DNA of 64,000 bases from positions 3,162,001-3,226,000 of the forward strand of contig NZ_CP031123.2 in the NCBI RefSeq assembly GCF_002843235.3, in the 5' to 3' direction. How positions within the stretch are numbered: the stretch's first letter is position 1; every line of letters begins with the position of its first letter. Positions 4,752 through 36,142 of the stretch are shown in pieces. Origin of the DNA: Providencia huaxiensis (GTDB lineage: Bacteria > Pseudomonadota > Gammaproteobacteria > Enterobacterales > Enterobacteriaceae). A program made the position numbers and the translations under genes. Under the pieces are notes generated by a model. It was not told the DNA's origin. It did not search any database and worked only from the letters and a program-made list of their open reading frames with translations.

Positions 4752-5882
4752 TTAAAAAGACTGTCTATACAGCATTTCCAGTTGCACCTTGCTCACATCC
4801 CGTGGATTGGTCGGAGTGCAACTATCGCGCAGTGCTTGCCCAACCATTTCCCCTAAACGGGCGTTAAAATCGAATTCATTGGTACCGGTTGCTTGAATGC
4901 CTTTTGGCATATTCATTTCATCTTTCAATACGTTGATTGCCATAATTAAGCTTTCAACGCCTTCTCGTATTGTTGAGGCGGGTAAATTTAAGTTTTTCGC
5001 GAGATGAGCGTAACGTTTTGCAGCTTCGTTATCGCATCGCCCTTCTAAATCCGCATTGAAGGCCACAACTTGTGCCATCAATAAGGCATTTGCACGACCA
5101 TGTGGAATGTGGAATACGCCGCCTAATGCATGGGCTAAACTGTGAGTTATCCCTAGTGATGCGTTAGTAAAGGCCATTCCCGCAATGCATGAAGCGTTGT
5201 GCATTTTTTCGCGTGCCACTAAGTTGCTACCGTCGCGATAACAATCAATTAAGTGGCCGAACACTAACTGCACGGCTTTTTCTGCTAAGGCATCAGAAAA
5301 ATCAGATGCAGTACGAGAAACATAAGCTTCTAGCGCGTGGCACAGCACGTCCATACCTGTGTCAGCCGTAATAGAAGCGGGTACTGACTTCACCAGTGCA
5401 GGGTCTAAAATGGCGACATCTGGCAACATAAATTCGTCAACTAAAACCAGTTTTTCAGACTGGGACTTGATCACTGAAAATGAAGTGACCTCCGAGCCCG
5501 TCCCACTGGTAGTTGGGATCGCGATAAACTGCGGTTTAACTCGATTGACGTCTTTTTTCGTGTGCCAGAGGGAGTAAATAACAGCTTTCGCAGCATCAAT
5601 AACCGACCCACCACCGAGTGCAATCACCACATCTGGATATTGCTTATCCATGATTTTCATACCTTTAACGATGGCTGAAATGTCAGGATCTGGCTCAACA
5701 TCGTCGTAAATCGAAAATGCGATGCCACTTTGGGTTAGCCTGCGAGTGACTTCATCAGCTAAGCCAAACTTCACCATCGCTCTGTCAGTGACGATAAAGG
5801 CATGGTGAGCACTCATTTGTGAGATAAAATCCAATGCGTTAGCACCGAATTGGACTTTAGGTTTAATCAAAAACTGGTTCAT
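4752..5882 (-). CDS. cutO: Iron-type alcohol dehydrogenase of the choline microcompartment
   Basis: This group III (Fe-dependent) alcohol dehydrogenase of 376 aa is expected to reduce part of the acetaldehyde to ethanol with NADH, regenerating NAD+ for CutF. The nucleotide-binding stretch ALGGGSVIDAAKA and the metal-binding histidines in THSLAHALGG and HIPHGRANA are present. I chose ATG 5882 (MNQFLIKPKVQFG) because AAGGAG lies 10 bases upstream; a longer in-frame reading to 5924 would overlap cmcD and adds a non-conserved leader. The gene lies 7 bases downstream of cmcD. It resembles EutG and PduQ, but its position in the cluster supports the cutO name. Confidence 0.93.
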   Translation of the reverse strand: MNQFLIKPKVQFGANALDFISQMSAHHAFIVTDRAMVKFGLADEVTRRLTQSGIAFSIYDDVEPDPDISAIVKGMKIMDKQYPDVVIALGGGSVIDAAKAVIYSLWHTKKDVNRVKPQFIAIPTTSGTGSEVTSFSVIKSQSEKLVLVDEFMLPDVAILDPALVKSVPASITADTGMDVLCHALEAYVSRTASDFSDALAEKAVQLVFGHLIDCYRDGSNLVAREKMHNASCIAGMAFTNASLGITHSLAHALGGVFHIPHGRANALLMAQVVAFNADLEGRCDNEAAKRYAHLAKNLNLPASTIREGVESLIMAINVLKDEMNMPKGIQATGTNEFDFNARLGEMVGQALRDSCTPTNPRDVSKVQLEMLYRQSF

Positions 5883-5889
5883 GCTGTTT

Positions 5890-6147
5890 TTACTCCTTGG
5901 TATAAACCTTCTCAACAATGGCAACCACTGACATGGCTTTGTAATTGTCTTTATTCAAAGCGAAGTAAGCTTCAGCTAACACAATGTCGTTAATACCTGC
6001 GCCAACACTGTCGACTGCCACATACGTTTTGTTTTTCAACGGTTCAAGGTCATCCCCTAGCTTGGTAACCATTAATAAGTTACTGCCACTAAGTTCTTGG
6101 CATTTCTGCGTTGCAACAACATGTCCGACTACCTTTGCGAGGATCAT
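5890..6147 (-). CDS. cmcD: BMC-P pentameric vertex protein (EutN/CcmL family)
   Basis: An 85-residue protein of EutN/CcmL/PduN type, the pentamer that caps the vertices of the polyhedral shell. It opens with MILAKVVGHVVAT and contains VAVDSVGAGINDIVL and the C-terminal VVAIVEKV, the standard motifs and length for this family. It lies between cutF and cutO on the same strand, with short gaps on both sides. The operon normally holds one pentamer gene, and none other is seen here. Confidence 0.94.
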   Translation of the reverse strand: MILAKVVGHVVATQKCQELSGSNLLMVTKLGDDLEPLKNKTYVAVDSVGAGINDIVLAEAYFALNKDNYKAMSVVAIVEKVYTKE

Positions 6148-22543: not shown

Positions 22544-25039
22544 TTATTGGCAAGGGATCAGGACTTTACCCTGATTTTTTTCGGCAATATTAGGTAAATT
22601 CAAACTACATTGGTTTGCGCCCGCAGCCCATTTCACTATGTAGCTTTCTTCTGGATCCACACCCGTTAAATACGCAACGCCGCTATCAGCAATAATTCCA
22701 ACTTCTCTTCCTGTGCTTGATTCAATCACACTGGTGCCAAGCGGTGGATAATTTCCATTATTCAAACGGATAATTGCTAAAATACGTTTTCCTTGATTCG
22801 CTTTTATTCTCTGATAACCAATTGACCCCTCAGTCAGGGTTTTACCAATAATGTTGTCATTGACATCTACATCATCAGGTAGTGTATTCATATCAATGTA
22901 AACATCTGAATTAGAAAAACTATTTAAGCTTGTCGCTACACCAATCCCAAATCGGTTTGTGACTGATTCGCCATTATCAATCGAAATCCCTGCAACATTG
23001 TCACTATCAATCATCACACGAGGCTCGTTGTTAGTCCCGTTGCGGTGCATGGCCGCACCGTATTTCGTTGCTGTCATGGAACCATACCAACTACCACCGA
23101 CAGCACGATATGAGTTCACATTTTCAGTCGCATTAACATTTAATACGCCATAAGGTGATGAATATTGATAACTACCACTGATATTTGGTTCTGCGCGTCC
23201 AAGTTTGTGCTGATCACCACCAACACGCATACTCCAATAGTTGTTATTCTCGTTTGCACTGTAATAACCCACAGATTGACCAAAGCTATGGTCATTGTCT
23301 GCATACTGAGCGTCATAACTCACTGAAGCGCCATTTTCGAGTGGCACGGAGAAAGATAGATAAATTTGATTATCATCCGTCTCTTCATATTTAATTTTAT
23401 TGAGTGATAATGTGCCGGAAATATTTTTAATTTGCCCAATACTAAATAACTTACTAAAACTCATCCCAAAGTTTGTTGTTGATTCACTATTCCAAAATTG
23501 GCGATGAGAAGCATTAAAATAGACAGTTAAATCCAGTGGGCTAATGTATTGATTAAAAGACGCGGTATAGACGTTTTTGTCACGTCTAAAATCAAGCACA
23601 CCGTTAGCTGCATCAATGTATTGAGGCATCGTTAAGAATTCTTTTTCAGAAAATTTATAGCCTGCGAATGTTATCTGTGAATTAGTAGATTCAAAACGTT
23701 TAGAATAATTTAAACGATAGCTATTACCTGAATAAGATCCAAAATTATCTAAATTTGCATGGGTGCGAGTGATATCAACAGAGATAGCACCAAACATATT
23801 CATGTTTTGCCCTATCCCCAAGTTCATCGCTTGATAATTGTTATTATCTACCGTTGCAATTAACCCACCAAAGATGGATGTATCACCAAATAAACCATAG
23901 GAAACTTCTCCTACAATAAACTTAGGATCAATTTTCTGTGAGCGACCAAATGGGTCGGATTGCCCCATGGTAAATTTATAAAGTAGCTGCCCCTGACGCG
24001 TTAAAAATGGCAACGATGCCGCTGTCACTTGATAAGTGGTTTTTGAACCATCTTCTTCCTCAATGGTTACATCTAAAGTACCTTGTACCGCTTCAGTGAT
24101 ATCTTGAACATTAAATGGCCCTGGAGCGACTTTAACTTGCTTAATCACACGCCCATTCTGTGAAATAATCACCATCGCATTCGTTTTCGCAATACCGGTA
24201 ACCTGAGGTGCATAACCGCGTAATGAAGGTGGAAGCATCCTGTTATCACTAAAAATAGACGCCCCTATAAAGCGAAAACTATCAAATAAGTCAGTCTTCA
24301 AATAAGACTCACCAAGTAAAACCTTTGCACCCATTTGAGGTAAAGCACGAAAAGCGTATAACTGAGTCCAATCAAACCGCTCATTCGTTTTACCTTGAGA
24401 ACGATTATATTGATATTGATAGTCAGCACGAAAACGCCAAGCTCCTAAGTTAACACCAGCGGTACCGTTACTACTACCACTGAATGTTTCACTGTTATTT
24501 TTAGGCGCTGAGTAATTGACAAACAGGTTATAGTCGAGAAATGCGCCCGTAATCCCATTTTCCCATTGGGAAGGTGGAACCCAATACGGGTCATCATATT
24601 CAAGCCAAGCTTGAGGGATAGAAAATAAGATATTCTGATTCGCTTTATCAAAGCGATAGGTAATATCTAAATTTTTAGATAGTTCAACACACTGGCCATT
24701 ATTATTTTGCAGAAGTTCTTCCTTTACCTTCTTTTTTAATGCAAAAATATTTACCATCTCTGGTGTAATACAGAGTGTTGAAGTATCTTTACTCTCTTCA
24801 ATGAATTTAATTAAATACTGCCCAAATAACTTTCTACCATTCAATGTAATATCTGTTAAATATTCACCAGCAGGAATAAAATCGGGATTAGAAAACTGAC
24901 TCAAATCAATATTATCTCTGTCCTTAGCATCAATAATATTCATATTAAATTCCACTGCATTCGCTATTCCCGAAACGGAAAATGCCAAAGCAATTGAAAA
25001 TAATATTTTATTTATTTTAAACTGAGGCAATAGAGACAT
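22544..25039 (-). CDS. Outer-membrane fimbrial usher
   Basis: An 831-residue usher, the pore and assembly platform for the fimbria. It has a signal peptide (cut near IANA-VEF) and an N-terminal domain beginning EFNMNIIDAKDRDNIDLSQF. The 24-strand barrel includes the plug domain (around TGIAKTNAMVIISQNG), and two C-terminal domains end in CSLNLPN. Its length fits the family. I chose ATG 25039 with AGGGA just upstream; the longer frame uses a TTG. It lies about 70 bases after the major pilin gene. Confidence 0.93.
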   Translation of the reverse strand: MSLLPQFKINKILFSIALAFSVSGIANAVEFNMNIIDAKDRDNIDLSQFSNPDFIPAGEYLTDITLNGRKLFGQYLIKFIEESKDTSTLCITPEMVNIFALKKKVKEELLQNNNGQCVELSKNLDITYRFDKANQNILFSIPQAWLEYDDPYWVPPSQWENGITGAFLDYNLFVNYSAPKNNSETFSGSSNGTAGVNLGAWRFRADYQYQYNRSQGKTNERFDWTQLYAFRALPQMGAKVLLGESYLKTDLFDSFRFIGASIFSDNRMLPPSLRGYAPQVTGIAKTNAMVIISQNGRVIKQVKVAPGPFNVQDITEAVQGTLDVTIEEEDGSKTTYQVTAASLPFLTRQGQLLYKFTMGQSDPFGRSQKIDPKFIVGEVSYGLFGDTSIFGGLIATVDNNNYQAMNLGIGQNMNMFGAISVDITRTHANLDNFGSYSGNSYRLNYSKRFESTNSQITFAGYKFSEKEFLTMPQYIDAANGVLDFRRDKNVYTASFNQYISPLDLTVYFNASHRQFWNSESTTNFGMSFSKLFSIGQIKNISGTLSLNKIKYEETDDNQIYLSFSVPLENGASVSYDAQYADNDHSFGQSVGYYSANENNNYWSMRVGGDQHKLGRAEPNISGSYQYSSPYGVLNVNATENVNSYRAVGGSWYGSMTATKYGAAMHRNGTNNEPRVMIDSDNVAGISIDNGESVTNRFGIGVATSLNSFSNSDVYIDMNTLPDDVDVNDNIIGKTLTEGSIGYQRIKANQGKRILAIIRLNNGNYPPLGTSVIESSTGREVGIIADSGVAYLTGVDPEESYIVKWAAGANQCSLNLPNIAEKNQGKVLIPCQ

Positions 25040-25110
25040 GATGTTCCCTGTCAAAAAATAAAAAAAGGAAAATAACAGGCAAATATATGCCTGTTATTTA
25101 AAATAAAAAA

Positions 25111-25668
25111 TTACAGGTAGTTTAAAGCGTAAGTTGCTTGAGAAATAATGCTACCAGTTTCAACTTTGCTACCATTTGCTTCAACACGTGCACTGAATGC
25201 TAATTTATTTGGACCATCCGCTAATGGCATCTCAACGCTGGTATCACCAACTTTCATTGTTGCGCCATCTGCGTTGATTAAACGAACACCCACACCTTTA
25301 GAAGTACCAGTATTTGCCAGCAATTCTTTAGCTGTAGTATCTGGAGTACCAGTGAACGTTACTTTAACTTTGCTAACCGCAGGGAAGATAACTTTGTTGT
25401 CAGCATCTGTCACTGCACCTAAATCACAGTTTTCTAACTGGATATTGTATTGAACGCTTTGGCTATATTTGTTACCAGTTTCCAATACTTTATTTGCAAC
25501 TTGGCCAAGGTCAACGTTGATTGTACCATCACCAGGGATTGAGCAAGGTGCATTAATCACTTTACCAGTAAAGTTGATGATGCCACTTCCTTGATCTACA
25601 GGTGCTGCGTGTGCAATACCAAATGAAGAAGCGATAATTGTAGCTAATGCAATTTTAGTTAATTTCAT
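25111..25668 (-). CDS. Major fimbrial subunit (type 1 / MrpA-like pilin)
   Basis: A 185-residue pilin. A signal peptide ends AHA, and the mature protein starts APVDQGSGIINFTGKV. The conserved disulfide joins Cys in APCSIP with Cys in LENCDLG. The alternating hydrophobic C-terminus (ISQATYALNYL) is the chaperone-recognition strand. AGGA lies before the ATG. It is first in the operon and so should be the most abundant product. Closest by eye to Proteus/Providencia MR/P-type major subunits. Confidence 0.92.
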   Translation of the reverse strand: MKLTKIALATIIASSFGIAHAAPVDQGSGIINFTGKVINAPCSIPGDGTINVDLGQVANKVLETGNKYSQSVQYNIQLENCDLGAVTDADNKVIFPAVSKVKVTFTGTPDTTAKELLANTGTSKGVGVRLINADGATMKVGDTSVEMPLADGPNKLAFSARVEANGSKVETGSIISQATYALNYL

Positions 25669-25899: not shown

Positions 25900-26136
25900 T
25901 TAATTATTTTCTTTATTGATAAAAACATCATCGATAAAAAAACAAATCATTTCAGTTTCTAACGCATTAGCAAGCACGTGCAAATTCTCAATATTAATAT
26001 TACACTCGCCTCTTTCATAGCGGGAAATTTGCTGCTGACTAACGCCAACAAGATTCGCTAATTCAATACCTGAAAGCCCTAAGTGCTTTCTTCTTTTTCT
26101 AATCTCTCTGCCTACTATCCGATTTACATTTATCAT
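25900..26136 (-). CDS. XRE/MrpJ-like helix-turn-helix regulator
   Basis: A 78-residue DNA-binding protein made almost entirely of one Cro/CI-type helix-turn-helix (about residues 8-65). The recognition region VSQQQISRYERGECNI carries the SQQQxSRYERG motif of MrpJ. MrpJ-family proteins are linked to fimbrial operons in Proteus and Providencia and reciprocally repress flagella. Unlike mrpJ, which ends its operon, this gene lies upstream of the pilin in the same direction. The ATG at 26136 lacks a strong ribosome binding site; an in-frame TTG lies 6 bases upstream. Confidence 0.8.
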   Translation of the reverse strand: MINVNRIVGREIRKRRKHLGLSGIELANLVGVSQQQISRYERGECNINIENLHVLANALETEMICFFIDDVFINKENN

Positions 26137-27402
26137 TAACAATAGCCCAAAATAACCTAAAATATTAAATGGCTAAATTATATTACAGATCAAAATCTTT
26201 AACATAATAAACTGCACTGATTATACACCGCTTATATATCCAAATCAAAATAGCAAGAACCAATTAAAACACGAAATTTGAGTTAATTATAGTTTTCAAT
26301 ATATAAAAGTAAAACTGTTTATAACGATCAATATAATAAATTAAAGCCATTGAAACCTATCAATATTTCATTATTTAAGCTTTGATTATCTTATAAGATA
26401 AAAATCACATTGTTCATATTAGTTACTATTTTTTATAAAACGAATTACACCATCTCAAGGTGTTGATTTTAAATCAAAAAAAATAATAACCATCACCAAT
26501 GGTAACATCGGGAAATATGCCGTAAATTTAATTTCCAATAAAATAAAGGCATTTACTGTTGATTTAATATGGTATTCATTGATTAATAAGTATTTTTATG
26601 TATTTATTTTTATAAATTAATTTAATTTTTACATTTTTAATGTTTACTTCAAAAAAACAACTGACAATGGTTTTTTTTATTTTTATCATTTATTATGATT
26701 AGATTAATAGCAATTTTAACTTACTCACATTAAGGGTTTAGAATATAAAAAACTGAAATACCCTTTAAATTACTACTATTTAATCATGAATAGAGCAAGT
26801 TACTCATAATTAAAGTAAAAAAATGTCGATAGCCTTCATTAACACATATTTAGAGTAAAATAAAACAATTTATGACATAAATAACCTTTAAATAACAACA
26901 AGTTACATTTATTTCAAATTGTAACAAATCACAAATGTATATTGCAATTTTATAGAGTTAAAATGGAAAATAACAAAAATAAAACATAATAATATTAGCC
27001 TGGAGCATTACAAAATGAGTAATACAAGCATTTCACTTCGCAATTTCCCCAATAAATAGTCAAAATGACAAGAAAGACACCTATCATTATTACATTTTGC
27101 GCTCATAGCTTAAGTTAGTTTCTTGCCTTTAATGCTAAGAATAAAGGTTACTTACATGGCTAATTCACTAAATAAAGACACTTATTAAGATAAAATCACC
27201 CAAGCACCTTTAAGCAAAGTTGATAATATAAGAATATTAAAGCTAAATTAAAGATTTTTTTCGCATAATGTAACTATGAATCATCTTTTTAAGTTAACTT
27301 ACCCGAAAAAAACACCTGTAACGAGTTAGTTAAACATTATATTCAACAACTTATAATAATAAAATACAAAAATAACTCATTATTTTTTGTTCGAACGACA
27401 TA
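26137..27402. other. Gene-poor AT-rich region with possible decayed sequence
   Basis: About 1.3 kb, very AT-rich. The only translation-like signals are two tiny frames. The first, at 27015-27059 (14 codons, starting MSNTSISL), has GGAG 9 bases upstream. The second starts at 27156 (MANSLNKDTY); after its stop the frame continues with DKITQAPLSKVDN. Neither is recognisable. Together with the broken nitrilase just downstream they suggest a decayed ancestral locus or the breakpoint of an insertion or deletion. Confidence 0.45.
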
Positions 27403-27435: not shown

Positions 27436-27678
27436 ATGCAAAGATACCCCCTACTTCACGCTGCAACAGTTCAGTTTCGACATCGCCCTAATGATAAGAC
27501 CTATAACCTAGACCGTATTCATAACTTTATTACCCAAGTCGAACAACAAGACGTGAAAATAGTGGTGTTGCCTGAGATATGTATTACTGGTTATTGGCAT
27601 GTGCCAAAGTTACCAGATGAGGCTTTTTCATGCCTTAAGTGAAACTTTAAGCTCAAATGACACTCGCTCAACATTGTG
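27436..27678 (+). pseudogene. Truncated, frameshifted nitrilase / carbon-nitrogen hydrolase
   Basis: The N-terminus of a nitrilase-superfamily enzyme is readable: ATVQFRHRPNDKTYNLDRI, then VKIVVLPEICITGYWHVP, which is the family start including the catalytic-Glu-bearing strand pattern. The frame stops after 68 codons at 27640. Removing one T from the T-run at 27624-27628 restores reading into FHALSETLSSNDTRSTL up to a stop at 27678, as expected for the continuing enzyme. The remaining two thirds, with the catalytic Lys and Cys, are absent. So this is a frameshift plus a large deletion. Confidence 0.75.
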
Positions 27679-27797
27679 AACAAGCCCAATGGTGTATTGA
27701 TGTGGTATGGCAGACTTCATTGCCTAAATTATGGCAAAACACCATCAATGAATTGATTGATGAAGTTTATAAAACATTTTCAAGAGAGAGCGAATAA
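27657..27797 (+). pseudogene. C-terminal coding remnant of an unrecognised protein
   Basis: A 46-codon frame beginning at an ATG without a ribosome binding site. Its later part (QWCIDVVWQTSLPKLWQNTI, then NELIDEVYKTF) is amphipathic and helix-like and looks like the tail of a real protein, possibly the C-terminal helices of a TetR-type regulator. It partly overlaps the nitrilase remnant in another frame, marking the deletion junction. Family unknown. Confidence 0.4.
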
Positions 27798-27894: not shown

Positions 27895-28893
27895 ATGTCT
27901 GGTAACCAGTCAATAACCCCCCTAAAAATCATTGCTTCTGGAGTTGCACTTCCTGAGCATAAAATTTACTCATCCATGTTGGATGAAAAATTAAATAAAC
28001 CAAAAGGGTTTGTCGAAAAACATTCAGGTATCGAATACCGCTTCCATGCAACTCATACCGATTCACAAGCAGTATTAGCCGCACTAGCGATTCAAAATGC
28101 ATTGCATGCGAACCATATCGCACCAAGCAGTATTGATATGCTAATCAATGCTTCAGCTATCCCAGTGCAAGCGCTACCGTGTTCAGCTGCGCATATCCTT
28201 GAACAATCGAATTTAAACCAAGGTATTGCCTGCTTTGATGTCAACTCCAGTTGCATCAGCTTCATCACTGCACTTCAGGTCGCGGCTGGGTTATTAGCCA
28301 CCAGTACTTACCAACGCATCGCAATTGTTTCTGCAGATATCGCCTCGCGCGGTATTGACTGGCAAGATAAAGAATCATCGCTGATTTTTGGTGATGGCGC
28401 AGCTTGTGTTGTTGTGGAAAAAGGAGATGGAAATAGCGGAATTATTTCTTACACCCATACCACCTATACTGCAGGGATCGATTTTTGCGAAATTCGCGCA
28501 GGTGGCACAAGATGCAACCCGCGCTCAGGTATGACTGACGATGATTTTCTTTTTCATATGCAAGGGAAAAAACTGTTTCGCCTCGCGTCTTCTTTGATTG
28601 AAGATTTTATGCAACAGGTTTTCAGTGAATCGGGTTTACAGCTCAAACAAATTGGTACCGTTATTCCACACCAAGCCAGCCACCTTTCTTTAGAACATAT
28701 GCGCCAACGTGTAGGCGTGACGACTGACCAACTGATTGATATTTACCGTCACCGCGGGAACCAAGTCGCGGCATCGATTCCTTCAGCACTGCACGAAGCG
28801 ATTATCACAGGCCGTTTCTATGAACAACAAAGTGCGATGCTGATTGGTACTGCCGCCGGTTTAGCGTTGTGCGCCATGGTGTTGGTGCCATGA
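27895..28893 (+). CDS. Beta-ketoacyl-ACP synthase III-like condensing enzyme
   Basis: A 332-residue thiolase-fold enzyme. The full catalytic triad is visible: Cys120 in DVNSSCISF, His259 in IPHQAS and Asn289 in HRGNQVAAS. The central LIFGDGAACVVVE is also typical. It should condense an activated acyl group with a second acyl or malonyl unit. It starts a seven-gene operon of lipid-type enzymes and is not near fab genes, so it is unlikely to be the housekeeping FabH. The ribosome binding site is weak. Its stop overlaps the next start. The chain substrate is unknown; an OleA-like head-to-head condensation is possible. Confidence 0.85.
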   Translation: MSGNQSITPLKIIASGVALPEHKIYSSMLDEKLNKPKGFVEKHSGIEYRFHATHTDSQAVLAALAIQNALHANHIAPSSIDMLINASAIPVQALPCSAAHILEQSNLNQGIACFDVNSSCISFITALQVAAGLLATSTYQRIAIVSADIASRGIDWQDKESSLIFGDGAACVVVEKGDGNSGIISYTHTTYTAGIDFCEIRAGGTRCNPRSGMTDDDFLFHMQGKKLFRLASSLIEDFMQQVFSESGLQLKQIGTVIPHQASHLSLEHMRQRVGVTTDQLIDIYRHRGNQVAASIPSALHEAIITGRFYEQQSAMLIGTAAGLALCAMVLVP

Positions 28894-29897
28894 AGATCTT
28901 GGTAACAGGCGCAACAAGTGGCCTGGGACGTAATGCTAGCGAGTACTTACTTCAAAGAGGCATTAATGTCATCGCTTGTGGCCGAAACCTCCAGGCAGGG
29001 GAACAGTTAAGCCAATTAGGTGCAACATTTATTGCCTGTGAATTATCTGAACTTACCGTTCAAGAAGCAAAAATACTCATGGTGGGCTGTGATGCAATTT
29101 GGCATTGCGCTGCCCTTTCCTCGCCTTGGGGAAAACGCCAAGATTTTGAGAAAACAAACGTTCATGCAACTCAAATATTGGCTACCGCTGCGGGGGAAGC
29201 CAAAGTTTCACGCTTTATCCATATTTCCACCCCTGCCATCTATTTTAATTTCACCCACCAGCAAAATATTCCTGAGTCTACGGTTAATAAACATTTCGCT
29301 AACCAATACGCTAGAACAAAATATTTAGCCGAGACTATGATAGAACAGTGTGTTAGGCAGTTTCCAACAACGCGTTACACTATTTTGCGCCCTCGAGGCT
29401 TATTTGGCCCTCATGATCGCGTTTTGCTACCGCGTTTGCTTGCCCAAATAAAATCACGAAAAGGAAAGTTGGTCTTACCTAATGGGGGAAATAACCATTT
29501 TGACCTCACCTATGTGGGAAATGTGGTTCACAGCATGCAGCTGGCGACGTTCAAAGAAACACTCCCCAGTGGCGCCATTTATAATATTACGAACCAACAG
29601 CCTCAAGCACTTAAACAAACATTAAATCAGCTATTTAGTGAACTTAACTTAGATTGTGAAATTCGTTCAGCCCCTTACCCTTTACTGTATGCTATTGCCT
29701 GTCTATTAGAGACCATTGGCTATTTAACGGGAAAAGAGCCATTACTGACACGCTATAGCCTTGGAGCTGCCTATTTCACCATGACATTAGATAACCAAAA
29801 AGCCCAACAAGAGCTGGGTTACTATCCTTTATATAGCATGCAACAAGGCGTTCATTTAACTGCGAAATGGCTGAAACAACAGGAGAACCCATGCTAA
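28890..29897 (+). CDS. Extended SDR / NAD-dependent epimerase-3beta-HSD family oxidoreductase
   Basis: A 335-residue Rossmann-fold reductase. ILVTGATSGLGRNASEYL is the nucleotide-binding motif, and the catalytic Tyr140 and Lys144 are in YARTK, after STPAIYF. YTILRPRGLFGPHDRV is typical of the 3beta-HSD/OleD branch. The start ATG overlaps the condensing-enzyme stop as ATGA (28890-28893). In context it would reduce the 3-keto group made by the first enzyme, as OleD does in long-chain olefin synthesis. Confidence 0.85.
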   Translation: MKILVTGATSGLGRNASEYLLQRGINVIACGRNLQAGEQLSQLGATFIACELSELTVQEAKILMVGCDAIWHCAALSSPWGKRQDFEKTNVHATQILATAAGEAKVSRFIHISTPAIYFNFTHQQNIPESTVNKHFANQYARTKYLAETMIEQCVRQFPTTRYTILRPRGLFGPHDRVLLPRLLAQIKSRKGKLVLPNGGNNHFDLTYVGNVVHSMQLATFKETLPSGAIYNITNQQPQALKQTLNQLFSELNLDCEIRSAPYPLLYAIACLLETIGYLTGKEPLLTRYSLGAAYFTMTLDNQKAQQELGYYPLYSMQQGVHLTAKWLKQQENPC

Positions 29898-30694
29898 CTA
29901 TTCATCAATATGAGGTGGGTTATTGCACACATCCAGGCTGTGTCGCATTAAAAGGTGCTAGTTTTAAATCCTGTAAATTCCCAGCAAGAGCATGGCTGAT
30001 TGAAGATGAACACCAACGTTGGCTGTTTGATACCGGTTATGCCACCCATTTTTATGATCATACGCGCCATGGCATTATGCGGCTATACCGAACAGTTACC
30101 CCTGTGTATTTCGACAGCAAAGACGCCCTTGTCAATCAATTGGCTAGTGATGGCCTAAAACCTAATGATATCAATGGTGTGATTTTGTCCCATTTTCATG
30201 GCGACCATATCGCAGGGCTACGTGACTTCCCCATCATACCCATTATTTGTTCAGGGGATGGTTGGGCTAAAACTCGCCCTTTAACTGGGTTTGCTGCATT
30301 GAAAAATGCCTTTGTCAGTGGTCTATTACCTGACGACTTCGAACAACGTACTGTATTTTATGAAGGTTTCCCCAAGGTCGCGTTACCCAATGAATTGCAA
30401 GTTTTAGGCGAAGGCTATGCCGTCAATCAGCAGAAAACGTTACTCATTGTCCCTCTCCCTGGGCATGCTGCAGGACATATTGGTTTGTGTGTACTAACTA
30501 ACTCAGGCTGGATATTGCTCGCAGGCGATGCGGCTTGGTCTCCCACTAATTATCGTGAATTACGCGGCCCTATGGCAATTGCCAATATCATCATGGATGA
30601 TAAGCAAGCTTATTATGAAACACTAAATAAATTGCATGAGATTGATAAACGCAATGTGGTTATCCAACTGTGCCATGAAGGGGATTTATTGTGA
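29891..30694 (+). CDS. Metallo-beta-lactamase-fold hydrolase
   Basis: A 267-residue zinc hydrolase. The metal motif HFHGDH is at residues 101-106, followed by LPGHAAGHIGL and LLAGDAAW, giving the usual two-metal site. The shape is close to lactonase-like members of the superfamily. ATG 29891 has AGGAG 5 bases before it and overlaps the previous gene by 7 bases. In this operon it may cleave an acyl thioester or lactone, the part an alpha/beta hydrolase plays in ole clusters. Substrate unknown. Confidence 0.82.
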   Translation: MLTIHQYEVGYCTHPGCVALKGASFKSCKFPARAWLIEDEHQRWLFDTGYATHFYDHTRHGIMRLYRTVTPVYFDSKDALVNQLASDGLKPNDINGVILSHFHGDHIAGLRDFPIIPIICSGDGWAKTRPLTGFAALKNAFVSGLLPDDFEQRTVFYEGFPKVALPNELQVLGEGYAVNQQKTLLIVPLPGHAAGHIGLCVLTNSGWILLAGDAAWSPTNYRELRGPMAIANIIMDDKQAYYETLNKLHEIDKRNVVIQLCHEGDLL

Positions 30695-31968
30695 TCCTCT
30701 CGATGCTCTGGCATTACTGGCGCGCACGCCGTTTAAAATTTAAAACTCGGGATGAACTAGAAGCCCATCAACAACGACATTTGGCACAATTCAAGCGCAA
30801 CGTATTAACCAAAAGCCCCTATTTTCAGCCTTATATTCATCAAGAGTTACATGATTTCCCCATTATGAATAAGCAAATCATGATGGATAATTTTGATGAA
30901 ATGAATACCGCCGGGCTTTCTAGTCAAAAACTTCTAGAATGTGCGCAAAAAAGTGAGCAATCTCGGGATTTTGCCCCTAAAGTGGGGCGCTACAGTGTCG
31001 GGTTATCCTCTGGAACTTCAGGCCGTCGAGGTCTGTTCGTTGTTAGCCCAGAAGAACAAAATGTCTGGTCTGGCAGTATGTTAGCTAAAATGTTACCTAA
31101 AGGCTTGTTTAGTGGTGAACGCGTTGCACTGTTTTTACGTGCCAATAATAACCTGTATGAAAGTGTCAATAACCGTTGGATTTCACTACGTTTTTATGAC
31201 CTTTTTGCAGATTTTGACCTACAACTCGCTGCGCTTGAACAATATCAACCTTCCATCATCGTTGCGCCAGCCCAAGTGTTATGCGCGATTGCTGATGCCA
31301 TCAGCCAACAAAAAATTCAATTAAATACACAAAAAGTGATTTCTGTCGCTGAGGTATTAGAGCCTCATGACAAACAAAAATTACAAGGGTGCTTCCCCAA
31401 TGTCGGGGAAGTCTACCAAGCAACGGAAGGGTTTTTAGGCTGTACTTGTTCCCATGGTACTTTGCACTTAAATGAAGCGTTTGTGCATATTGAGCCTAAT
31501 TGGCTTGATAATGACCGTTTTTCGCCGATTATCACGGATTTCACCCGTAAAACACAGCCTATTGTTCGCTATCAACTGGATGATGTGTTAGTGGTGAAAA
31601 AAAATGCCTGCCCCTGTGGCTCTCCTGAAATGGCGATTGAACGCATTGAGGGCCGCTGTGATGACTTGCTGCAACTTCCAGGCTATAACGGCAAAATTGT
31701 GACGATTTTCGCTGATCCCTGTGCTCGGGTTATTGTGAATCACTTACCTGTTACTGCCGATTTCCGCTTAACACAGCAAGGAAACTCATTATATTTACAG
31801 GCTGAATGTTCTCCTACGGAGCTGTCCCATTGCCAACAACAACTGGTAAGCTATTTTGCAAACCAACACGTTGATATTACTCAATTAGATTGGCAATTAT
31901 CATCAGCTGCTATTATGCAAACACTCTCGGTTAAAAAGCGACGCATAACCCGTAAGGAAGCGAAATGA
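30691..31968 (+). CDS. F390-synthetase-like adenylate-forming enzyme
   Basis: A 425-residue member of the adenylating superfamily, of the branch related to coenzyme F390 synthetase and phenylacetate-CoA ligase. The phosphate-binding loop SSGTSGRRG is near residues 106-114. The adenine-pocket motif YQATEGFLG is near 242-250, and RYQLDDVL supplies the ribose-binding acid. A cysteine cluster (KNACPCGSPE) follows. It starts with GTG overlapping the previous stop (GTGA, 30691-30694). It probably activates a carboxylic acid as the acyl-AMP; the acceptor is not known. Confidence 0.8.
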   Translation: MILSMLWHYWRARRLKFKTRDELEAHQQRHLAQFKRNVLTKSPYFQPYIHQELHDFPIMNKQIMMDNFDEMNTAGLSSQKLLECAQKSEQSRDFAPKVGRYSVGLSSGTSGRRGLFVVSPEEQNVWSGSMLAKMLPKGLFSGERVALFLRANNNLYESVNNRWISLRFYDLFADFDLQLAALEQYQPSIIVAPAQVLCAIADAISQQKIQLNTQKVISVAEVLEPHDKQKLQGCFPNVGEVYQATEGFLGCTCSHGTLHLNEAFVHIEPNWLDNDRFSPIITDFTRKTQPIVRYQLDDVLVVKKNACPCGSPEMAIERIEGRCDDLLQLPGYNGKIVTIFADPCARVIVNHLPVTADFRLTQQGNSLYLQAECSPTELSHCQQQLVSYFANQHVDITQLDWQLSSAAIMQTLSVKKRRITRKEAK

Positions 31969-32579
31969 GTAGCAAAGAATTATTCACTCGCTTTATTTAT
32001 TGCCTGCTCGGCTGGGGAACCGTTGGTATTGTTTATCAATATACCGGGCAAATAACGGGGCAGGCTCATATTTTGTCCCCCAGTGAGATTGATAATGCCG
32101 TGCCATTTTCACCCGACGCCATCTGGCTTTATCTCTCATTTTTCCTGTTTATCCCACTTGGGTATTTTCTCAGCCCTCTAAGAAAGGCTCGCTCACTCAT
32201 GTATGCCATGCAGCTCTGTGCGCTGGTTTCTGGGGCGGTCTATCTGTGGTATCCCACGACCATGCTGTACCACGATTACGACTTTTCAACCTTATCTGGG
32301 CGGGTTTTGTCTGCATTGATTGATATTGATAGCCCACAAAATTTACTCCCTTCTCTACATGTCTCATTGACTCTCGTCGTACTGAATGCATTATGGTCAA
32401 CACAACAAAAATTTCGCACGGTTCTCGCCGTGATTTGGGCCATTGCTATTTGTGTCTCTGTATTGGTGTTAAAACGCCATTTATTTATTGATGTTGTCAC
32501 TGGCGCACTCACCGCTTGTGGAGCATTAGTGATTGTTCACACTGCGAAGTTTGTCTTAAAGAGAAACACTAATGAATGA
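31965..32579 (+). CDS. PAP2-family membrane phosphatase
   Basis: A 204-residue membrane protein with about five or six helices. The phosphatase motifs PSLHVSL (about residues 128-134) and KRHLFIDVV (about 169-177) carry the two catalytic His residues, as in PAP2_3/IPC-synthase-like lipid phosphatases; the first KX6RP motif is not obvious. It should act on a lipid phosphate or transfer a phospho-headgroup in the membrane. It overlaps the previous gene by 4 bases (ATGA) and the next by 8. Confidence 0.82.
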   Translation: MSSKELFTRFIYCLLGWGTVGIVYQYTGQITGQAHILSPSEIDNAVPFSPDAIWLYLSFFLFIPLGYFLSPLRKARSLMYAMQLCALVSGAVYLWYPTTMLYHDYDFSTLSGRVLSALIDIDSPQNLLPSLHVSLTLVVLNALWSTQQKFRTVLAVIWAIAICVSVLVLKRHLFIDVVTGALTACGALVIVHTAKFVLKRNTNE

Positions 32580-33696
32580 ATTAACCTTTCCGATTGTTTT
32601 CATGTTAGCGGTCGTAGTCGCAGAAGGTTTAGTGATCGCTAAAACACAAAAAGGCACCGTTAGCTGGCAAGAATTGGTATTCAACCTCAATTCCGGCCAT
32701 ATCATGTTATGGTTATTCAGAGGGTTAGAGATTTTCTGTTACGGCTTTGTCGTGACCCACTACTCATTCAACCTCGTTGAAAACTGGCCAACCGCACTGG
32801 TGTGGGTGTTTGCGATTTTGGCTTGGGACTTTGGTTTTTACTGGCTACACCGTTTGCACCATACCTACCGTGTTTTATGGGCCGTTCATGTGGTACATCA
32901 CCAAGGGGAACACTATAATCTATCATTAGGTGTGCGTAATTCTTGGTACTCATCACTGACATCAATCCCATTCTTTATGTTACTGGCGCTAATGGGGATC
33001 CCCTTAGAGGTGTTTATCACCGTTTCAATATTGCACTATACCATTCAGTTTTTTAACCACAGTGCGCTGATCCCTCGTTTGGGTTGGTTAGAGAAATTCA
33101 TGGTAACGCCACAACACCACCGAGTTCATCATGTCAAGGAAGGGCATTATTCCAACCGTAATTTTGGTGGCAGTTTTATTTTTTGGGACAAACTGTTTGG
33201 TACATTTTCCAAATTGCCTGAAACTGAGCACCATTTTGGTATCAAAGGGGCTCCCGCATCTGAAAACCCGTTTATTGATAGTAATTTACCTTTTTGGCGT
33301 ATCATTAAACGCCGCAGTCAGCCCAAGGCAAAACCCGCGCCATTATTTCGTGTAAACCAAATCGCATTAGTAATGGGAACGCTCCTCCTATTTAGCCTAG
33401 TTATTGGTTATGTCTATATTTATGGCTATGGTTACCAAGGGACGACTCAACAACAAGTAATTTTATTTATCTTATTAGCCTTAGGTACCGTGGCACTATC
33501 CGGTATTTCAGATGGCCGTAAAATTGGCCTGTTGAGCTGGTTTTTCATCGCTTGCTTGCTATTAATTTGCATTTTATTTATTTGGCAATGGACAACCCCA
33601 TTTTGGGTTATTTTTACCAGTGCTCTGTGGTTGCATAGTTTATTAATGTTAATCGGTATAGGCCGAAAACCCATACAGGTGAGTGATGTCTTCTGA
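32572..33696 (+). CDS. Sterol-desaturase / alkylglycerol-monooxygenase-like membrane hydroxylase
   Basis: A 374-residue di-iron membrane enzyme of the fatty-acid hydroxylase superfamily. The histidine boxes are WLHRLHH, HVVHHQGEHYN and HHRVHHVKEGHYSNRNFGG. The HxxHH...EHYN arrangement and the following NSW are close to alkylglycerol monooxygenase. The last third (about 255-370) adds several further membrane helices. It overlaps both neighbours. It likely hydroxylates or oxidises the lipid made by the operon. Confidence 0.85.
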   Translation: MNELTFPIVFMLAVVVAEGLVIAKTQKGTVSWQELVFNLNSGHIMLWLFRGLEIFCYGFVVTHYSFNLVENWPTALVWVFAILAWDFGFYWLHRLHHTYRVLWAVHVVHHQGEHYNLSLGVRNSWYSSLTSIPFFMLLALMGIPLEVFITVSILHYTIQFFNHSALIPRLGWLEKFMVTPQHHRVHHVKEGHYSNRNFGGSFIFWDKLFGTFSKLPETEHHFGIKGAPASENPFIDSNLPFWRIIKRRSQPKAKPAPLFRVNQIALVMGTLLLFSLVIGYVYIYGYGYQGTTQQQVILFILLALGTVALSGISDGRKIGLLSWFFIACLLLICILFIWQWTTPFWVIFTSALWLHSLLMLIGIGRKPIQVSDVF

Positions 33697-34789
33697 GCCG
33701 CTAAGGCCGTTAGGCTACCAACATCGCCATGACCAAGCGTTCCAAAAAGCATTGAACATGGCGGCCAAACACTATTTACAACAGCGGGCTGATCACCGAT
33801 TCGCTGACACACGTTTTTATTTAAAAAGTCTGGTTTTAATCTTGTGCTGCTTAGGCAGCTACGGCATAGCGTTATGTGTTAATGTGTCTTGGGCGTTTTT
33901 TATTTTTTACCCTCTATTTATTTGCTTCGCATTGTTATTGGCGATTAATTTAGTTCACGATGCTTCCCATAATGCGATTTTTAAACAGGCCAAAGCCAAT
34001 TATTGGCTCAATTTTTGGGTCACTATTCCGTTGGGTTTAGACCCTGAATGTTGGCGAGTCAGGCATATTATTTTTCACCATGCGCACACCAATATTCGCC
34101 ATTATGATTTAGATATCGAAGAAAATTTCGTCTTACGCCAAACCCCTTATCAGCGCTGGTACCCGTTTATGCGAGCTCAGCATCTGTATTGGCCATTAAT
34201 TGCCGCAATGACTTTCCCTGCACTGATTTGGTTCTTTGATTGGATGGACAGATTTCATTTGACGCGCGTCGCCCCTCATATGCGCCATCAAGGCCGTCGT
34301 GGTATTGGGGCATTTTTATTGGCTAAGTTACTGCATTTGATTGTTGCAATAGTCATACCTGCGTTTGTTATTACTGATATCAGTTTAGGGACCTTGCTGC
34401 TCACTTACTTATTTAGCCAAATGTTTGCCTCTCTCATATTTGTTGTATTGATACTTGGCACCCATTGGGCGAAAGCAACTTTTTATACGCCTCCCAAAGA
34501 AGGCAATATGCCACATGGTTTTTATACTCACACGTTTTCAACCACTTATGATTGGCAAACCACGCCTCGTTGGCTAACCTATTGGTTAGGCGGGTTAAAC
34601 TTACATCTTACACACCATTTATTTCCCAATTGGAACCACCGCCATTACCCTGCCCTTGCTAAGATTATTGAGCAAACCGCCAAACAGTTTTCGATGGATT
34701 ATCATTGTATTAGCGCAAAAGAATTGTTTGTTTACCAACAGCAGTTTTTAAAAGAGATGGGAACGGGCAAGAAAGCGGATGAGCACTGA
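33686..34789 (+). CDS. Fatty-acid desaturase-like membrane di-iron enzyme
   Basis: A 367-residue desaturase. The three histidine boxes are HDASH (residues 91-95), HIIFHHAHTN (about 127-136) and LHLTHHLFPNWNH near residue 317. Spacing and the C-terminal box match acyl-CoA/acyl-lipid front-end-type desaturases. The ATG at 33686 lies inside the end of the previous gene (11-base overlap), with AGGTGAG upstream. It is the last gene of the seven-gene operon and would insert a double bond into the product or its precursor. Confidence 0.85.
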   Translation: MSSEPLRPLGYQHRHDQAFQKALNMAAKHYLQQRADHRFADTRFYLKSLVLILCCLGSYGIALCVNVSWAFFIFYPLFICFALLLAINLVHDASHNAIFKQAKANYWLNFWVTIPLGLDPECWRVRHIIFHHAHTNIRHYDLDIEENFVLRQTPYQRWYPFMRAQHLYWPLIAAMTFPALIWFFDWMDRFHLTRVAPHMRHQGRRGIGAFLLAKLLHLIVAIVIPAFVITDISLGTLLLTYLFSQMFASLIFVVLILGTHWAKATFYTPPKEGNMPHGFYTHTFSTTYDWQTTPRWLTYWLGGLNLHLTHHLFPNWNHRHYPALAKIIEQTAKQFSMDYHCISAKELFVYQQQFLKEMGTGKKADEH

Positions 34790-34822: not shown

Positions 34823-36142
34823 TTATCTATCGATAATAATATTTTGATTTATCACGCTTTTTTCACTATTACCCACCATCTGAGCAAATTTCTCTAATGG
34901 GTCAGTCCGAAAAGCATACAAACGTTTGAGCGCAAAAGGGTTATCCCCCAATTTGACTTTTCCTTGAATGGTCGTGACGGCAAGGTGTAGCCCCGCATCT
35001 TTAGCCGCATCCATCGCTGATTGGTTATAACCACCAAATGGATATGCAAGGTAACGCTGCTCAGGTTCGAAACGACTTAAAACTCTTATCGACCGTTTAA
35101 AATCCAACATGATCGTATGTTCTTTCCGGCTAAATAAAATGGGTGAATTATGGTTATCTAAACGATGTAAAAAGTGAGTATGAGATTGGATATTAAAAAC
35201 GTCTCGACTATCTTTGATTTCTTGCTTATTCATAAATTGCAAGTCATGCGCTGACCATTTTTGTGGCTGTGTTTTGATGCGTGAAGAAATAATAAACAAC
35301 GTCGCCTGCTGGCGGTTATGCCTTAAAATCGGTAATGCATAGCGATAAACTGATTTTAAACCATCATCAAATGTCAGCACGACGGCTTTACCAGGTAGGT
35401 TAGCGGATTTATTCAGATAATCTTCCACATCGGCAAGCGAAAGTGTTTGGTAACCCGCCTGTTTTAAATAATTCATTTGTTCTCGAAATGCTTCTACCGA
35501 TGTCGTCGTGGATGTTTCACGGAAATGCTTATTTTCACTATCTTTGAGAATATGGTGATAAGTTAAAATTGGAATGCCTTTATCTAATGCGACATCATCT
35601 AAACGCACATAACCCAGCCTATCCCCTATACGGATGGTTAGCCAAGCACTCTTTTCTCCTGCTTTATCCGTTTTAATCATCCGAGCTAACACAGGGTAGC
35701 GCAGGTTTTCCCATAAAGAGGCAATTTGCTTACGATTACCCTGAGTTGAGTTATATACCGCTGTTTTTTGGTGTGTGACCAAATAATCATAAATAGGATT
35801 TTGTAAGTCATTTAGCCTATCTACTTCAGGGACATAACGCGGTTTTTGGTTAGAAAACGATATTGTTTTTACAAATGCGTAGTCATTGCCAAACTGCATC
35901 GCGCAATAATCCCCTGAGGGAGAATAAGCGTAAAAACCGTGTTCTGCGTTAAGTTCTGCGACAGCGCGCATTTCTCCAGCAATCATCGCAAAAATAATTT
36001 CAGGCTGTTTCGTTTGCACTAGCTTTGGTGGGATGTCTGCCAACTGCCAATCGTCAGCGTTGTTGACGGTCTCAGAAGCCAAAGATTGGGGAAGATAATT
36101 CGTAAATAAAATACAAAGCAATAAAAGAAATCGTCTAGACAT
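34823..36142 (-). CDS. Secreted polysaccharide deacetylase (NodB domain)
   Basis: A 439-residue exported protein. A signal peptide ends near SLAS. An N-terminal domain of about 165 residues of unclear fold is followed by a NodB deacetylase domain (about 190-420). This has the metal and catalytic motifs VVLTFDDG (about 254-261) and SHTH (320-323), and YLAYPFGGYN further on. Such enzymes remove N- or O-acetyl groups from surface polysaccharides. The layout recalls E. coli YadE and the PgaB deacetylase half, but no polysaccharide genes adjoin it. It is convergent with the lipid operon and probably monocistronic. Confidence 0.82.
   Translation of the reverse strand: MSRRFLLLLCILFTNYLPQSLASETVNNADDWQLADIPPKLVQTKQPEIIFAMIAGEMRAVAELNAEHGFYAYSPSGDYCAMQFGNDYAFVKTISFSNQKPRYVPEVDRLNDLQNPIYDYLVTHQKTAVYNSTQGNRKQIASLWENLRYPVLARMIKTDKAGEKSAWLTIRIGDRLGYVRLDDVALDKGIPILTYHHILKDSENKHFRETSTTTSVEAFREQMNYLKQAGYQTLSLADVEDYLNKSANLPGKAVVLTFDDGLKSVYRYALPILRHNRQQATLFIISSRIKTQPQKWSAHDLQFMNKQEIKDSRDVFNIQSHTHFLHRLDNHNSPILFSRKEHTIMLDFKRSIRVLSRFEPEQRYLAYPFGGYNQSAMDAAKDAGLHLAVTTIQGKVKLGDNPFALKRLYAFRTDPLEKFAQMVGNSEKSVINQNIIIDR

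Follow-up and report, generated by a model that had tools for sequence, protein, structure and literature searches.

The contig NZ_CP031123.2 of Providencia huaxiensis (assembly GCF_002843235.3) carries a seven-gene operon in the stretch from 3,162,001 to 3,226,000, 64,000 nucleotides that are called the window here. Seven complete plus-strand open reading frames (ORFs) fill positions 27895 to 34789 of the window, and successive neighbours overlap by 4, 7, 4, 4, 8 and 11 bases; the starts of genes 2, 3 and 7 were placed at an ATG inside the listed ORF. The initial annotation of this DNA had described seven genes overlapping by 4–11 bases and had named their families; the ORFs were confirmed, and the families were borne out by Pfam and NCBIfam. 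Genes 1 to 4 are referred to as the core and genes 5 to 7 as the tail:

27895..28893, plus strand: core gene 1, condensing enzyme of the beta-ketoacyl-acyl carrier protein synthase III (KAS III) type, triad C120/H259/N289 (Pfam ACP_syn_III and ACP_syn_III_C; closest solved structures MxnB, 4v2p, and CorB, 4yuc)
28890..29897, plus strand: core gene 2, extended short-chain dehydrogenase/reductase (SDR) (Pfam Epimerase/3Beta_HSD; best NCBIfam model OleD 2-alkyl-3-oxoalkanoate reductase, below cut-off)
29891..30694, plus strand: core gene 3, metallo-beta-lactamase (MBL)-fold hydrolase whose metal site is intact and whose closest branch is that of the lactonases (Pfam Lactamase_B)
30691..31968, plus strand: core gene 4, F390-synthetase-related adenylate-forming enzyme with a PaaK-like fold (NCBIfam TIGR02304; no Pfam match)
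31965..32579, plus strand: tail gene 5, divergent membrane phosphatase or phosphotransferase of the PAP2 superfamily (Pfam PAP2_3)
32572..33696, plus strand: tail gene 6, membrane protein of the di-iron-type fatty acid hydroxylase (FAH)/sterol desaturase family, extended by an additional region at the C-terminus (Pfam FA_hydroxylase)
33686..34789, plus strand: tail gene 7, membrane fatty acid desaturase (DES) with three histidine boxes (Pfam FA_desaturase)

The operon is real and intact, with seven genes. Compared with Providencia rettgeri YPR31 (L015), the ratio of non-synonymous to synonymous substitution rates (dN/dS) was 0.035–0.109 across all seven genes; in the comparison with L016, two genes were saturated. 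As had been noted from the sequence, none of the seven genes encodes a carrier protein (Pfam). A promoter and terminator scan gave 13 found versus 16.7 expected and 9 found versus 7.4 expected, and was uninformative because these counts are near chance.

The possibility that the genes do not travel together had been raised by the initial annotation, and comparative genomics gave it no support. A genome scan with one genome per species yielded at least 565 confirmed gene-4 relatives, and the locus counts cover the best 80 of these. The core order KAS-SDR-MBL-F390 was found at operon distance in 77 of the 80 loci; the three exceptions were L057, in which no KAS was found, L072, which has a desaturase in the place of the KAS, and L082, which lies at a contig end. 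The tail varied: PAP2, FAH and DES were all present in 55 loci (many of them with a second DES), PAP2 and FAH in 4, PAP2 only in 6, and none of the three in 15. Among these last 15, five have a glycosyltransferase tail, and in three (L030, L071 and L075) the sequence stops about 0.7 kb or less after gene 4, so that a tail may have been missed there. The locus is thus a 4 + 3 structure, with a constant four-gene core and a variable tail, a division that the initial annotation missed.

Several other tails were observed. The glycosyltransferase tail follows the core in Mangrovibacter (two genomes), Buttiauxella, Leminorella and Citrobacter (one each). It encodes a further SDR that scores best with OleD, a GT21 glycosyltransferase that scores best with HpnI, a protein of about 190 residues and a macrolide-type glycosyltransferase; all these matches are under the NCBIfam cut-off, and the families were assigned in L049 and L050 and extended to the others by blastp grouping. 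The protein of about 190 residues (L050, 13394–13960, and its relatives) was matched by neither Pfam nor NCBIfam at E 0.001. Elements of both tails are present in Klebsiella sp. BIGb0407 (L049, where the protein of about 190 residues was not called in the chain) and in a Leclercia (L060). An uncultured proteobacterium (L080) and a Noviherbaspirillum (L086) have a large AMP-ligase, a desaturase and a PAP2 protein (identified by Pfam and by blastp, respectively). ATP-grasp, GNAT and/or Rieske genes stand beside the core in Paraburkholderia, Uliginosibacterium, Paenibacillus, Pontibacillus, Rhizobium and further genomes of the class and phylum, and a divergent sulfotransferase and a TetR gene accompany it in Ketogulonicigenium and Paracoccus. 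In Xenorhabdus and Snodgrassella no tail lies directly behind the core where the contig continues, and some Xenorhabdus have PAP2 upstream.

The gene-4 family is rare in evenly composed samples yet common in the genus of the window. It was detected in 3 of 369 genomes of the class sample at E 1e-40 (two of them exceeding the cut-off) and in 5 of 299 genomes of the phylum sample at E 1e-50, the window genome being counted in both, compared with 19 of the 23 other genomes of the genus. Of 14 control genomes, only Deinobacterium chartae gave a gene-4 match. Carriage by viruses was rejected, a scan of viral_contigs having given 36 pattern matches and no relative. From a plasmid collection, 13 records were opened, chosen by hand from 58 and 79 records with a match; they cover Pseudomonadota, Bacillota and Fusobacteriota. 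The four core genes were clustered in 11 of the 13 (L005, L006, L008–L012, L116, L117, L137 and L138), including records from Bacillota and Fusobacteriota, with an ATP-grasp gene between KAS and SDR in L012 and L117 and with KAS last in L116. In the remaining two, the core genes were spread over about 10 kb (L118) or gene 4 had no recognizable partners (L007). Two of the 'plasmid' records look chromosomal: NZ_CP141085.1 (L005), which holds narGHJI, purU, rssA and galU, and NZ_CP084075.1 (L116), a 2.1 Mb Fusobacterium sequence.

DNA matches to the E. coli form of the whole operon were found in 672 of 5426 complete Escherichia coli genomes, with at least 80% of the operon covered in 671, sequence type 131 (ST131) included; these figures measure DNA coverage in an unevenly sampled collection, and annotation was read for two copies and for one copy of the plasmid collection, each with seven genes. 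Nearly all matches (671 of 673) are chromosomal. The two copies that were opened, from clone D i2 and from an ST131 strain, both have the operon between narI and a tRNA-Tyr gene, and a Serratia locus (L020) has four upstream frames that blastp grouping places with narGHJI of E. coli. These two E. coli copies differ by few substitutions, and their dN/dS ranged from 0 to 0.31 per gene.

A gene-4 tree was made with 86 of 111 sequences (L003, L004, L007, L040, L075, L082 and L095–L113 left out) and with nine tail labels set by hand. The tail labels needed 15 changes on this tree, versus a minimum of 8 and versus 29.1 with shuffled labels. Pseudomonas copies stand among Serratia copies (98/95 and 100/97), and copies from Snodgrassella or uncultured Neisseriaceae stand beside Serratia (L045, 100/99) and beside Gilliamella (L071 and L079, 100/100). 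The tree, which was read by itself and not against a species tree, suggests that the locus moved between lineages; mislabelled contigs are possible. It was observed that the Snodgrassella-type copies occupy two places (L045 versus L071 and L079, Gilliamella being L065 and L070), as if acquired at least twice.

The residues on which the core enzymes would depend are conserved (L001, L002 and L013 were left out of the counts as duplicates). The KAS triad, Cys120/His259/Asn289 in the initial annotation, is present and nearly invariant (C120 in 85 of 86 relatives, H259 and N289 in all 86); it is common to FabH too and is therefore not specific for MxnB and CorB, the chain-joining ketosynthases of myxopyronin and corallopyronin. 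MxnB and CorB are the nearest solved KAS III proteins both by sequence (32% identity) and by model, and they have an insert in common with the core KAS. The general SDR features are kept in 88 of 88 relatives (K144, the lysine of YxxxK, and G7 and G13 of the nucleotide-binding motif) and equally in four OleD-type proteins; in a homologue search, the names, where given, were generic among the matches listed (120 of 1939). In the MBL protein the HxHxDH motif was conserved in 107 of 107 relatives and the remaining metal ligands in 106 of 107. Its nearest relatives are N-acyl-homoserine lactone (AHL) lactonases and 4-pyridoxolactonase, and its nearest solved relatives in a profile search are lactonases; against the AHL lactonase equivalogs AiiA and AttM (NCBIfam) it scored 53 and 51 bits, under the cut-offs of 375 and 390.

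Gene 4 belongs to TIGR02304, 'F390 synthetase-related', with 557.5 bits versus a curated cut-off of 251.9 (NCBIfam), and twelve motif residues were kept in 110–111 of 111 relatives. The name of this model implies no reaction; what distinguishes the gene-4 proteins here is their constant gene context among the loci examined. As for the tail, gene 5 scored 32.6 with PAP2_3 (Pfam gathering score 27) and fell just under with the PAP2 model itself (26 versus 27.2), and S130, H132, R171, H172 and D176 were kept in 82 of 82 relatives. Eight histidines were kept in 63 of 63 relatives of FAH and eight in 59 of 59 relatives of DES. No solved sequence relative of PAP2, FAH or DES was found at E up to 1.

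A lipid-type product is probable. We tentatively read the operon as a member of a modular lipid-biosynthesis locus that appears to move between lineages and would work in the following steps, a reading that we place just short of an even chance; that two acyl chains are joined is possible and deserves somewhat less confidence. First, the KAS III would take an acyl chain from the host fatty acid pool onto C120 and condense this chain with another thioester, acyl or beta-ketoacyl, in an MxnB/CorB-like join of two chains. The lactonase-type MBL would then open the resulting lactone or thioester to a free carboxylate, and the OleD-like SDR would turn the 3-oxo into a 3-hydroxy group; either order of these two steps fits. 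Fourth, the F390/PaaK-type enzyme would adenylate the acid and pass it to an acceptor (coenzyme A (CoA), an amine or a hydroxyl). Finally, the tail enzymes would work in the membrane: PAP2 would act on a phosphate, FAH would add a hydroxyl and DES a double bond. The initial annotation had proposed one pathway to a hydroxylated or desaturated long-chain compound. The conserved unit stood up, the product is still inferred, and the seven genes do not form one indivisible pathway; 'hydroxylated or desaturated' fits one tail only, because the core occurs without the last three genes or with other tails.

Several observations weigh against this reading. Diagnostic residues of the core KAS are equivocal, five matching MxnB/CorB only and seven FabH only; the insert motif is only partial in some distant core members, and the insert (residues 203–208) is the worst-modelled stretch besides the N-terminus. 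At the position of the catalytic Glu of OleA and PpyS (OleA E117, supplied by the partner subunit), the 86 KAS proteins have Leu (83), Ile (2) or a gap (1). The KAS tree has FabH and MxnB/CorB as its only references and a free root; in it, the one further KAS III locus of the window genome (by PF08541) groups with FabH. The match of the SDR to OleD (161 bits) is weak and under the cut-off of 580, the OleD model also gives matches below cut-off in 13 of the 14 control genomes, the operon SDRs form a group separate from the four OleD-type proteins, and the best solved SDR relative is a sterol-4-alpha-carboxylate 3-dehydrogenase. The gene-4 model fits PaaK structures moderately (TM-score 0.53–0.63), and several of these are aryl-acid ligases. 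The KAS as a proven MxnB-type enzyme was rejected on the split residue counts; chain joining by the KAS is suggested rather than shown.

The direct rival is the elongation of a single chain, which is possible, at around one chance in three: a FabH-like KAS III would use malonyl-ACP, the SDR would reduce, the MBL would act as a thioesterase, gene 4 would re-activate the 3-hydroxy acid for a head group and the tail would oxidize it. The seven FabH-type residues and the missing Glu base argue for it, as do the top NCBIfam models of the KAS, which are named beta-ketoacyl-ACP synthase III and are all below cut-off (PRK07204, 338 bits; PRK09352, 207; the FabH model TIGR00747, 185.5 versus a cut-off of 292.1); the DarB model scored 20 bits, and two Bacillota members exceed the PRK07204 cut-off. 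Against it stand the MxnB and CorB structures as closest by sequence and model, with the insert in common, and, weakly, the SDR, which scores best with the head-to-head pathway reductase. MxnB and CorB themselves have Val at the Glu position, according to the passages available from PMC4578411, and are in this respect like the core KAS. They differ in context: the operon KAS stands with an SDR, an MBL and a ligase and without a carrier gene, and the chains of MxnB come from carrier proteins of a modular polyketide synthase, as described in the part of PMC5724707 available.

Two known pathways share enzyme families with the core. The bacterial head-to-head olefin or beta-lactone pathway, OleABCD, includes an adenylate-forming enzyme and a hydrolase (OleB), and it resembles the operon in having these, a condensing enzyme and an SDR. 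The operon KAS, however, lacks the OleA Glu and is 19% identical to OleA, gene 4 is PaaK-like, and an MBL fold takes the place of OleB. Membership in OleABCD was rejected on the missing Glu, the OleD score under cut-off and the SDR tree. The PqsABCDE alkylquinolone pathway combines a ligase, a KAS III and an MBL-fold hydrolase, as the operon does. An alkylquinolone-like route, in which the PaaK-type enzyme activates an aromatic acid, a PqsD-like KAS III extends it, a PqsE-like MBL cleaves the thioester and lipid character comes from the tail, is improbable. The KAS scored 71 bits with PqsD versus 161 with MxnB, none of the seven genes resembles an aromatic-acid supply gene (Pfam, NCBIfam), and the tails are of lipid type. 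A PqsE-like MBL was rejected: lactonases were found instead, and no PqsE name occurs among the matches listed (60 of 69). Finally, an operon that degrades lactones or signals, for quorum quenching or for detoxification, to which the lactonase relatives of the MBL and the lactonase and acyl-CoA-ligase pair of the rhodococcal qsd operon (PMC6262395, in the passages available) would point, is very improbable, given a triad-intact KAS III, desaturase and hydroxylase, which are synthetic or modifying enzymes, and a KAS that stands beside SDR, MBL and gene 4 in nearly all loci.

Upstream of the operon, the window retains traces of two genes:

27436..27797, plus strand: remnants of two genes, one for a carbon-nitrogen hydrolase and one for a LysR regulator

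P. rettgeri YPR31 has intact versions of both genes upstream of its operon (5129–6127 and 6140–7114 of L015), and about 1.6 kb of this DNA is absent from the window; the window operon may have lost a local regulator. Directly after the operon and convergent with it, a 439-residue polysaccharide deacetylase-domain protein is encoded on the minus strand (34823–36142). Fimbrial usher and fimbrial subunit genes lie at 22544–25668 (minus strand) and a small helix-turn-helix gene at 25900–26142. No tRNA gene was found in the window.

The initial annotation knew of no characterized pathway with this combination, and our literature search, whose coverage excluded most subscription papers, gave no published account of the locus, the four-gene core or the product. 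No paper was found for the ST131, uropathogenic, Xenorhabdus or 'CoF synthetase' contexts, and the available passages of 'F390 synthetase' papers contain no description of the locus. The reduced-virulence mutants of a kiwifruit pathogen include one with Tn5 inserted in a gene named 'Coenzyme F390 synthetase' (PMC9823363, passages available), a gene that may or may not belong to a copy of the operon. The locus, its core and its product are thus not described in the literature searched; the families themselves are known, because public annotation already carries the gene names.

In the unevenly sampled collection, roughly every eighth complete E. coli genome has operon DNA (at least 80% covered). 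Judged from sequence and gene context, the locus might represent a widespread, so far undescribed class of two-chain lipids. A compact core of four enzymes (chain-joining KAS, reductase, lactonase and PaaK-type ligase) that moves between lineages would make them, and interchangeable, lineage-specific tails (hydroxylase/desaturase, glycosyltransferases or ATP-grasp/GNAT/Rieske) would finish them; the producers would be common bacteria associated with the gut, plants and insects, E. coli ST131 among them. In this full form the proposal is rather unlikely. The conserved core and its swappable tails frame a clear question: which acid is made by the core, and how do the tails convert it?

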